Source: Limnochordales bacterium
Lineage (GTDB): Bacteria; Bacillota; Limnochordia; Limnochordales; DUMU01
DNA: 64,000 nucleotides
Assembly: GCA_014896315.1 (NCBI GenBank)
Contig: JADBKP010000003.1
Coordinates: forward strand, 246,134-310,133
Direction of reading: 5' to 3'
Shown here piece by piece: positions 34,254 through 37,254 of the stretch (its first letter is position 1; the number at the start of each line of letters is the position of its first letter). The notes below the pieces were generated by a model. The model was not told the DNA's origin. It saw nothing but the letters and a program-made list of their open reading frames with translations, and made no database searches. The translations under genes were made by a program, and so were the position numbers.

Positions 34254-35300
34254 TCAGACGGTACAGCCGCAGGACTGCCGAACTACCAACTCGGTGCCTA
34301 CCAGTACGGTCTGTCCCGCCACCGGCGGGGCGGCCACATCCCCGGCGACCATCCCCAGCAGCACGCGGGCGGCTGCCACCCCGATCCGGTCGGTAAAGAC
34401 CCGCACGGTAGTGAGGGGAGGGGTAGCCTCCGCAGCCATGGCCACATCATCGAAGCCAACGATCGCCAGATCCTGCGGTATCCGGAACCCCTGGTCTTTG
34501 GCAGCTCGTAACGCCCCCAGGGCCATGGCATCGTTTGCACAAAAGAGCGCTTGCGGCATGGGCTCACCCGTCGTCCGCACTTCTTCCAACAGGCGTAGCA
34601 GCGCCTGGTACCCACTGGCTTCGGTCGTCTCCGGCATCGACACGACCCGAGCACCGCCTTCGGCTCCGGCCAAAGCCAGGGCGCCGGCGTAACCGAAGTA
34701 GCGGTTGCGACTGCTCGGCCATGTGAGCGGCCCACAAAGGCAAGCAAAGCGGCGATAGCCATGGGTCAGCAGGTGTTGAACTGCCTGTGCCGCCCCTCCC
34801 TGGTCATCGCCGGCGACGACCGGCGTATTGGGTAGTTCGGGATCACGGTTGTCAATCAGCACCAGGGGCAAGCCCTGCGCTGCTACCTCGCGTACCAGCT
34901 CCGCCGGTACCTCCGGCCCGGCCAGAAGGAACCCGCCCAATCGGCCGCTACCGACCAGCCGACGCAGGTGCTCGGCCTCCATCTCTCCTACGGGCAGCGG
35001 CACCAGCTGGTACCCATGCCGCCCGAGTTCAGCACTGGCCGCGTACAGCACTGCGGAGTAGAAAGGATCTTCGTTTCGCCGCACCCGGTGGTATCGAACA
35101 ATGAAGCCGAAGGAGTCCGGCTGCGCCGACGTGAGCCGCCGCGCCGAGTCATTGGGCACGAACCCAAGACGCGCAGCGGCAGCCAAAACGCGGGCGCGCG
35201 TCTTCTCACCCACACCCTCTTTATCATTGAGAACACGGGAGACGGTGGCGACCGACACCCCCGCTTCTGCCGCCACATCTCTAATGGTACGCCGCGCCAC
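34254..35300 (-). CDS. LacI family transcriptional regulator
   Basis: DNA-binding regulator of sugar genes (348 residues). The helix-turn-helix head is intact (TIRDVAAEAGVSVATVSRVLNDKEGVGEKTR) with the LacI hinge region LTSAQPDSFGFIV. The rest is a periplasmic-binding-protein-like effector domain (ALFCANDAMALGALRAAKDQGFRIPQDLAIVGFDDV, LTTVRVFTDRIGVAAARVLL). The GTG at 35300 has AAAGGCGG upstream. Probably represses the binding-protein gene downstream and perhaps itself. GTAAC half-sites at 35318-35322 and 35337-35341 near its own start could be an operator. Confidence 0.92.
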   Translation of the reverse strand: MARRTIRDVAAEAGVSVATVSRVLNDKEGVGEKTRARVLAAAARLGFVPNDSARRLTSAQPDSFGFIVRYHRVRRNEDPFYSAVLYAASAELGRHGYQLVPLPVGEMEAEHLRRLVGSGRLGGFLLAGPEVPAELVREVAAQGLPLVLIDNRDPELPNTPVVAGDDQGGAAQAVQHLLTHGYRRFACLCGPLTWPSSRNRYFGYAGALALAGAEGGARVVSMPETTEASGYQALLRLLEEVRTTGEPMPQALFCANDAMALGALRAAKDQGFRIPQDLAIVGFDDVAMAAEATPPLTTVRVFTDRIGVAAARVLLGMVAGDVAAPPVAGQTVLVGTELVVRQSCGCTV

Positions 35301-35317
35301 TCACCGACCGCCTTTGC

Positions 35318-35341
35318 GTAACCGTTTTCTCTTTTTGTTAC
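35318..35341. promoter_or_regulatory. Possible LacI-family operator
   Basis: GTAAC (35318-35322) and its inverse GTTAC (35337-35341) flank an AT-rich 14-base centre, 18 bases upstream of the LacI-type gene start. Position fits autoregulation; the spacing is longer than in classic LacI operators, so this is weak. Confidence 0.25.
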
Positions 35342-35492
35342 ATACGCCAGCCACAGCATAATTCCTTCCGGCCGGCCGCGGGAAATCAGCCCTGCAGTCC
35401 TATAACCCCGGACCCAGGAAATGAATACTCCTGCCCCGGGGTCAGACAAGGGCAGACAAAAGAATTAAGGCCGACCCCGAAGGAGGATACTA

Positions 35493-35579
35493 ATGGGACG
35501 TTTCGATGATAAGTTCGCTTTCGTGCTTTTCCTTATTCTGGTCCTCTTGCTGTTGGGTGATGACGGAAAGCACCTGTAA
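35493..35579 (+). CDS. Membrane microprotein 1 (YjcZ-like, 28 residues)
   Basis: Short gene with AAGGAGG six bases before the ATG. The 28-residue product has a polar head (MGRFDDKF), one hydrophobic helix (AFVLFLILVLLLLG) and an acidic/polar tail (DDGKHL). It is the first of three tandem copies that share the form F-V-x-F-L-I-L-I-L-L-x-L-G-D-D/N. It resembles the YjcZ-type sporulation microproteins of Bacillota (short Gly/aromatic head and a single helix), but that assignment is inferred from shape. Conservation between the three copies and three good ribosome sites argue that it is translated. Confidence 0.7.
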   Translation: MGRFDDKFAFVLFLILVLLLLGDDGKHL

Positions 35580-35613
35580 GCTGGCGTAGCTAGCAGTGGT
35601 CTGGCGGGGGGCG

Positions 35614-35641
35614 GTGTCCGGTACCGGAAGGGTGGGGACAC
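35614..35641. repeat. Inverted repeat between microprotein genes 1 and 2
   Basis: GTGTCC (35614-35619) pairs with GGACAC (35636-35641), with a TCCGGTACCGGA palindrome inside and a partial overlap with GGGACACTGTCCC. It may be a terminator-like or REP-like element between the first and second microprotein genes. Confidence 0.3.
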
Positions 35642-35765
35642 TGTCCCTCGCTTTGTGGATTTCGGCCCGTGCTCTCATACCACGCGAACCATGTTGAACG
35701 TATGTTGTTGGCGGTCGCGGGGAGACCGGATGCCCCGCTACCAACCTTGAACAGGGGGGATAGAA

Positions 35766-35855
35766 ATGCCGGACGGATTAGGTGGATTCTTTGGCGGTCG
35801 CTGGGCTTTCGTGATCTTTCTGATTCTTATTCTGTTGATCCTCGGCGACAACTAG
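35766..35855 (+). CDS. Membrane microprotein 2 (YjcZ-like, 29 residues)
   Basis: The ATG is preceded by GGGGGGATAGAA, a good ribosome site. The 29-residue product starts with a Gly/Phe-rich head (MPDGLGGFFGGR), followed by one hydrophobic helix WAFVIFLILILLILGD and an Asn end. The core is identical to that of microprotein 3 and close to that of microprotein 1. One-helix membrane protein, likely inserted without a signal peptide. Function unknown; YjcZ-like sporulation proteins are the closest type I can name. Confidence 0.75.
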   Translation: MPDGLGGFFGGRWAFVIFLILILLILGDN

Positions 35856-35908
35856 CACTGATCGGCAGCTGAAGCCAGTTCAGCTCTGGGAGGAAAGGAG
35901 GAGAGTGG

Positions 35909-35989
35909 ATGGGCGGCTTCGTGTTCGGTCCCCGGTGGGCGTTTGTGATCTTCCTGATCCTTATTCTCCTCATCCTGGGTGACGACTAG
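35909..35989 (+). CDS. Membrane microprotein 3 (YjcZ-like, 26 residues)
   Basis: The ATG follows AAGGAGGAGAGTGG. The 26-residue product has the head MGGFVFGPR, the helix WAFVIFLILILLILGD and one more Asp. Same helix and near-identical codon sequence as microprotein 2, so the two are recent duplicates. It ends 47 bases before the stop of the convergent ABC ATPase gene (36037). All three microprotein genes are on the plus strand while all large neighbours are on the minus strand. Confidence 0.75.
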   Translation: MGGFVFGPRWAFVIFLILILLILGDD

Positions 35990-36036
35990 CTGCAGCGGTA
36001 TCCATCGACCTGGGCCATCCCGCACCGCGGGGTGGC

Positions 36037-37254
36037 CTATGTTTGTTTGTCGATTCTTCTTTCGGAGACCGGGTCGAAGAGGTATTGATGCCCCGGTGAC
36101 CAGGCCAGGAAGTACTGATCACCGATCTGGAGCTGTAGAGTTGCCGGAACGACCGCCCGTATACAAATCCTGGCCGTGTCCGAGCTGCAGATAGCAGGAG
36201 CAAGTTCAACCAGCTTGTACCAGCCCTGAAACTGGATTGCCGCCACCTTAAACTCCGGCGTCACTATACTTCCTGTGGGAAAGCCCCCAGGGTCGGACCC
36301 GAGAAGAATTTGTTCGGGACGGACACAAACAAGCACCACGTCCCTTCCCTTTCCCTCGCCGGCCATCCACCGCATAACGCCCGCAGCCTCTCCCTCGGCC
36401 AGGGGCAACTCCCATTCCCCCAGCGCCGGAACGCGAAGGCTCCTGCAAGGAGATGAAACAGCCCTCGCCTCGAGAACGTTAGGTGGCAGCGGGCTGAAGC
36501 CCCGGGCCACAGCCAGGTGGCGCGGATCTGTATAGAGCGCCTCAGGTGCGCCCCCCTGAAGTACCTGACCTTCTGACAGATAGACCACCTCATCGGCAAG
36601 GGCGAGCGCTGTCATGGCATCCGCCACCGACCAAATCACCACCGGGGTGAGATCCATTTCGTCAAGGAGTCTCCGCACGAGGGTTACAAGTTCCTGCCGG
36701 GTACCGGTCGGGAACGAGGTCAGAGGGTCGTCGAGCAGCAGTACCCGCGGCCGGGAAGCAAAGCTGCGGGCAAGTGCTACCCGGAAAGCTTCGGGCGGCG
36801 CCAGCTCCTGTGGGTATCGCTCCAGGAGCCGCTCCACTCCGCACGCTTCCGCAAACAACCGAACCTGGTCTTCCACGTCGGCTCGGAGCTTACCCTTCCA
36901 CCACCTGCCACCAGCACCTTGCCGAAAAAGCACCCCGGCAGCGATCTGCCGGCTGACCGAAAGATGGGGCCAGAGGGCGAAGTCGTGCCCGATCATTGCC
37001 ATCGAGCGCTCCGGCACCGGAAGCCGATCAATCCGTCGCCCGTCGAGCCGGATCTCGCCGGAGTCCAACTCCTCGAGACCCGCCAGGCAGCGCAGGAGCA
37101 ACGTCTTGCCCGCGCCTTCTGGGCCGGCCACCATAGTCAGGCGTCCGGACTGCGCCCGCAGTGAAACGTCCCGCAACAGGGGCACTTGGGTGGCCTCGGC
37201 GGCACCAGCCGCAGACCTGCGCCACTTGTTCAGACCGGTTACAGTCAGTTCCAC
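36037..37254 (-). CDS. Degenerate ABC importer ATPase (Fe/thiamine/spermidine type)
   Basis: ATPase-like protein of 405 residues with the layout of FbpC/PotA-type importers: ABC domain (residues 20-250) then a beta-rich TOBE-like end. Walker A is intact (GPEGAGKT). Other key residues are changed: the Q-loop Gln is His (GHDFALWPH), the LSGGQ signature reads LAPPEA, the Walker B glutamate is Asp (LLLDDPL), the D-loop is TSFP, and the switch histidine is replaced (VVIWSVADAM). The GTG at 37254 has GGAGGTG upstream. It would pair with the two permeases upstream in the same strand order. It may bind ATP but hydrolyse it poorly, or act as a regulatory subunit. No binding-protein gene adjoins. Confidence 0.78.
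   Translation of the reverse strand: MELTVTGLNKWRRSAAGAAEATQVPLLRDVSLRAQSGRLTMVAGPEGAGKTLLLRCLAGLEELDSGEIRLDGRRIDRLPVPERSMAMIGHDFALWPHLSVSRQIAAGVLFRQGAGGRWWKGKLRADVEDQVRLFAEACGVERLLERYPQELAPPEAFRVALARSFASRPRVLLLDDPLTSFPTGTRQELVTLVRRLLDEMDLTPVVIWSVADAMTALALADEVVYLSEGQVLQGGAPEALYTDPRHLAVARGFSPLPPNVLEARAVSSPCRSLRVPALGEWELPLAEGEAAGVMRWMAGEGKGRDVVLVCVRPEQILLGSDPGGFPTGSIVTPEFKVAAIQFQGWYKLVELAPAICSSDTARICIRAVVPATLQLQIGDQYFLAWSPGHQYLFDPVSERRIDKQT

Follow-up and report, generated by a model that had tools for sequence, protein, structure and literature searches.

Background

SpoVM of Bacillus subtilis is a protein of 26 residues that is made in the mother cell under sigma-E and binds surfaces through an amphipathic helix. 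Type I toxin-antitoxin systems also encode very small proteins with one hydrophobic helix, in tandem copies, and these toxins usually diverge fast. Another group is the YjcZ family (PF09680), whose tiny products have a glycine-rich head and one helix ending at glycine, with several paralogues per genome; in B. subtilis, the sigma-K regulon includes yjcZ (PMC517825). The sigma-K consensus of B. subtilis consists of KCACM and GCATANNNTA, published as KCACM-N15-GCATANNNTA (PMC3416734), with a box spacing of 14-16 nucleotides (PMC517825). In C. difficile, sigma-E and sigma-K have similar -10 boxes and are told apart by the -35 element, ATA for sigma-E and AC for sigma-K (PMC3789822).

Here we analyse three tandem genes for single-helix microproteins in a stretch of 64,000 nucleotides (hereafter the window) from a genome of the order Limnochordales. 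The genome falls in DUMU01, a family of this order (PMC11456536), and Limnochorda pilosa is, to go by an entry in the reference list of the same article (PMC11456536), described as a spore former in one of the papers cited there. We propose, with a probability of about 75%, that the three genes belong to a family of late mother-cell sporulation microproteins under sigma-K, which would help the final assembly of the spore envelope. The main addition of this work is the family itself, widespread and unregistered, together with its putative sigma-K promoter signature.

Three microprotein genes in the window

Three plus-strand frames starting with ATG occupy positions 35493-35989 as given in a preliminary description of this DNA: copy 1 at 35493-35579 (28 aa, MGRFDDKFAFVLFLILVLLLLGDDGKHL), copy 2 at 35766-35855 (29 aa, MPDGLGGFFGGRWAFVIFLILILLILGDN) and copy 3 at 35909-35989 (26 aa, MGGFVFGPRWAFVIFLILILLILGDD). 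Each has its own strong ribosome site on the same strand, namely AAGGAGG (35480-35486), AGGGGGG (35753-35759) and AAAGGAGG (35894-35901), respectively. The larger genes on either side, at 34254-35300 for a LacI-type regulator and at 36037-37254 for an ABC ATPase, are both on the minus strand, also as described. Just 3' of copy 3, a predicted intrinsic-terminator-like hairpin of 13 pairs followed by T-rich TGTTTGTTTG (36011-36039, plus strand) closes the plus-strand microprotein unit. In the interval that separates copy 1 from the LacI-type gene, the plus strand also has a sigma-70-like promoter match, TTGTTA-N16-CATAAT at 35335-35362; it is a single consensus match, with a chance expectation of 0.3.

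In a search with the family profile described below, copy 1 was recovered at E=2.5e-10, copy 2 at E=6.5e-15 and copy 3 at E=8.5e-15, each of the three being itself included in the profile. Copies 2 and 3 share 17 identical residues (RWAFVIFLILILLILGD) despite 10 nucleotide differences in their coding DNA, which argues against a recent DNA duplication and for selection at the protein level. On the basis of these E values, the identity between copies 2 and 3 and the relatives found in other genomes, the three genes are real and conserved, and their repeated pattern lies far beyond chance, as had been suspected from the frames alone. The near-identical helix of copies 2 and 3 and the divergence of copy 1 were likewise recovered. 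The Phe/Gly-rich head that had been attributed to all three products, however, is found in copies 2 and 3 only, copy 1 lacking it and carrying a longer tail, DDGKHL.

A widespread family under protein-level selection

A protein search of the window's own genome yielded five clear copies, three of them at the locus and the other two on contigs C16 and C1, respectively. A genome of the same genus holds 5-6 copies, most of them in a tandem cluster on public record DUMU01000033.1 (Bacillota bacterium isolate AS04akNAM_94); a scan of genome contigs returned this locus only. Further members occur elsewhere in the order. A profile built from 21 members was then run at E<=1e-4 over 399 sampled Bacillota genomes, 89 of which gave matches. 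The family is thus present in about one fifth of the sampled Bacillota genomes, frequently as several copies, but is not represented by a model in Pfam, NCBIfam or PHROGs. When 59 members were scanned against these three collections there was no credible match, all hits being weak and most of them to unrelated transmembrane stretches; the window proteins, scanned against Pfam and NCBIfam, likewise gave only weak matches, mostly of this kind. No relevant paper came up when the literature was searched for the helix string; an uncurated cluster may exist in small-protein catalogues such as sORFdb.

The products follow a common plan, with a short Gly/aromatic head, a Leu/Ile-rich helix of 14-15 residues and a short, usually acidic tail. 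Members of the family are 20-47 residues long; the 95 read in detail have a median length of 28 and 81 of them start with ATG; a ribosome site precedes all 95 genes examined, the choice of start having favoured such sites. Invariant or nearly invariant residues are concentrated in the helix, the family core being AFxxFLILILLLLGD, and most tails open with G-D, S-D, S-N or G-N directly after it. At least two copies are present at 24 of 61 loci. The acidic C-terminus and the tandem arrangement, which had been regarded as distinctive of the present locus, are thus traits of the family.

Conservation in relatives with purifying selection at the codon level, which the preliminary description had named as support, was found. 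For the helix codons, pooled pN/pS comes to about 0.2; differences at the three codon positions amount to 0.27/0.04/0.58 within the window's taxonomic family. The family is under protein-level selection, and we infer that the three genes of the locus are paralogues within a widespread Bacillota family of single-helix microproteins with a predicted membrane location.

Link to sporulation genomes

The same 399 genomes were searched for SpoIVA (PF09547), which is present in 336 of them and in 87 of the 89 microprotein carriers (Fisher p=1e-5, uncorrected for phylogeny). The two carriers in which SpoIVA was not found are incomplete assemblies (75% and 61%), and SpoIVA is present in other genomes of their taxonomic family. 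The microprotein family is nearly restricted to genomes with spoIVA. The reverse relation is loose, since 249 SpoIVA-positive genomes gave no match to the microprotein profile. All 14 genomes of the window's order, including the window's own, have spoIVA and a sigK-family gene (the latter above the curated cut-off in 13), and the microprotein was not found in nine of these 14; two taxonomic families of the order with sporulation genes yielded none. Its absence from relatives bearing sporulation genes marks the microprotein as accessory rather than as part of the core sporulation machinery.

Sigma-K-type promoters across the family

Promoter patterns were counted upstream of 83 family genes, drawn from about 40 genomes, and in dinucleotide-preserving shuffles of these regions (n=200). 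The pattern AC-N15..17-CATANNNT[AT] is present in 25 of the 83, against 0.9 expected, and none of the 200 shuffles reached 25; sigma-E, sigma-F/G, sigma-A and sigma-H patterns showed no enrichment in the same upstreams relative to the shuffles. With spacing left free between 8 and 25, a sharp peak appeared at N17 (22 genes), other spacings being represented by 0-6 genes. The -35 element in the family reads GTAAC[CA], and the boxes lie at a median of 49 nt 5' of the start codon. The published KCACM and GCATANNNTA boxes with their spacing are equivalent to AC-N17-CATANNNTA, the peak spacing in the family, and an AC in the -35 element is what separates sigma-K from sigma-E (PMC3789822). A leave-one-out matrix recognised 40 of the 83 upstreams at p<0.01.

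Motif density in family upstreams is 33-fold that in the loci overall, and among 233 large neighbours with a ribosome site just 8 are preceded by it (Fisher p=3.6e-10 versus the family). One of these eight (L109:3143-4681, plus strand) lies about 2.3 kb away from two microprotein genes; its product combines three SipL/SPOCS domains with a LysM domain, a coat-assembly type of protein, and its promoter supports the reading of the motif as sigma-K. Many family members appear to stand behind promoters of the AC-N17-CATANNNTA type, as judged from motif content.

Candidate promoters at the locus

In the window's own order, a GC-shifted box, C[AG]TANNNT[AG], occurs in 10 of 17 upstreams against 0.68 expected, and CGTANNNTG in 7 of 17 against 0.26; since the sequences that brought this box to notice also served to count it, these figures overstate its significance, and it is put forward as a hypothesis for the GC-rich genomes of the order. 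Its background in the window is about 0.03 per 95 nt per strand. Within the window, copy 2 alone has a candidate sigma-K-type promoter, which would serve copies 2 and 3: ATACCACG-N14-CGTATGTTG at 35677-35707 (plus strand), a GC-shifted version of CATANNNTA with its -10 box 67 nt 5' of copy 2. This candidate departs from the consensus at the -10 box (CGTATGTTG), its -35 element is in imperfect register, and its leave-one-out p is 0.075 under a matrix that models AT-rich promoters. A copy from the same genus (G001) has GGATCCAG-N14-CGTATGTTG, so that CGTATGTTG is common to both. No convincing sigma-K box was found upstream of copy 1 (leave-one-out p=0.39). Copies 2 and 3 are probably carried on one transcript, from the box at about 35677-35707 to the terminator at 36011-36039, and transcription of the locus copies by sigma-K is a prediction.

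Comparison with YjcZ, SpoVM and other small membrane proteins

The preliminary description had placed the products close to YjcZ-type sporulation microproteins. The sporulation part of this proposal and the YjcZ-like shape are supported, given the sigma-K-type promoters, the presence of SpoIVA in 87 of 89 carriers and the place of yjcZ in the sigma-K regulon (PMC517825), but membership in the YjcZ family is not. In both families the proteins are tiny, the head is rich in Gly, the single helix ends at Gly and a genome has several paralogues. Control by sigma-K, known for B. subtilis yjcZ from the regulon (PMC517825), would be common to both, to judge from the motif enrichment in the microprotein family; several YjcZ genes that we fetched have similar sigma-K-type boxes. 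They differ in the tail, acidic in the microproteins and aromatic in YjcZ, in the helix motif (FALIVVLFILLIIVG in YjcZ vs AFxxFLILILLLLG), in the failure of the YjcZ model to recognise the microproteins and in the genomes that they occupy.

It could be argued that the microproteins do belong to PF09680, as far-diverged members that keep its ancestry and its role. Their common size and plan (a Gly/Tyr/Phe head and one helix ending at Gly), the shared promoter class (PMC517825) and a profile-profile alignment (hhalign) that runs in register would fit such a kinship. The probability of that alignment is, however, only 35.8%, over a composition-biased helix, and the helices themselves differ in motif. 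Searches with the YjcZ model, suggested earlier for these frames and extended to the own genome and the phylum, gave no match in carriers; PF09680 had none in the own genome even at E<=10, and the nine YjcZ-bearing genomes among the 399 show no overlap with the microprotein carriers. Membership in YjcZ/PF09680 is not supported by these results, and a common ancestry with the same role appears unlikely. The microprotein family likely works in the same setting as YjcZ, though it is a non-member by the available tests. With SpoVM the microproteins would share very small size and synthesis in the sporulating mother cell, as predicted from their promoters; they differ in that their helix is fully hydrophobic instead of amphipathic, and their promoters are of the sigma-K type instead of sigma-E.

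A vegetative function, for instance as regulators of a neighbouring transporter, with the sporulation link as an accident of phylogeny, might be suggested by the genes that flank the window copies, for a LacI-type regulator on one side and an ABC ATPase on the other, but those neighbours are on the opposite strand, no neighbour is kept across relatives and the family is enriched in sigma-K-type promoters, which together make this reading very unlikely. Less probable still are hydrophobic toxins of type I toxin-antitoxin systems, held in check by antisense RNAs: tandem single hydrophobic helices of 26-29 residues with strong ribosome sites resemble such toxins, but the promoters are sigma-K-type and not vegetative, the family is nearly exclusive to genomes with spoIVA, its helix is tightly conserved across many taxonomic families, and Rfam gave no match, antisense RNA families included, on either strand of 35301-36060.

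Proposed role in late sporulation

If the family acts in the late mother cell as we propose, RNA polymerase with sigma-K would direct synthesis of the peptides late in sporulation, and each would enter, with its single helix, either the membrane of the mother cell or the outer membrane of the forespore. There they may pack through the unusually invariant face of the helix and contribute to the final assembly of the spore envelope, be it the outer membrane, the coat or the exosporium; membrane location, helix packing and envelope role are all predictions from the conserved plan. At the present locus, copy 3 would ride on the transcript of copy 2, and copy 1 would be a diverged paralogue without a recognisable promoter.

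A comparison of 161 neighbour proteins with Pfam revealed no conserved neighbour gene, no family being found in more than four of them. Spore-type matches in the top families listed comprise three Mn-catalases, one Coat_F and one GerA, which lend faint support to a role in the spore envelope. The assignment to sigma-K gives the family a concrete time and cell of action, and opens a hidden part of spore formation outside Bacilli to direct test.

Other proteins noticed

In the regions L044 (G000:C17:167284-167334) and L043 (G001:C9:207121-207174), longer Pro/Gly-rich proteins have the helix of the microproteins close to their C-terminus (segment ES[TQ]AFLLFLILILLILAF), both with a CATANNNTG box 5' of a GGGGGG ribosome site. 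A second type of paralogue, mostly of 44-55 residues and with an NP[FY]xLFLILILLLL helix and a polar tail, is encoded near microproteins at L103, L105, L108, L109, L117, L119, L134 and L139. One could speculate, though we regard it as doubtful, that AFxxFLILILL serves as a membrane module specific to spores and is shared by several proteins of the late mother cell, namely the microproteins of 20-47 residues, the NP[FY]xLFLILILLLL proteins of 44-55 residues and the Pro/Gly-rich proteins of L043 and L044, whose helices, packed with each other, would tether the outer layers of the spore to the outer membrane of the forespore. If true, such tethering would operate in a large share of spore formers outside Bacilli.

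Near the microproteins of one taxonomic family, a further protein is also conserved (LLPLTxQDxQMxxxLKPxL..., about 185 residues), for which two tested sequences had no Pfam match. Possibly an unrecorded late sporulation protein, it has its own sigma-K-type promoter and is encoded at L139:2367-2927 and L137:2476-3021 (plus strand) and at L105:2642-3205 and L143:2072-2626 (minus strand).
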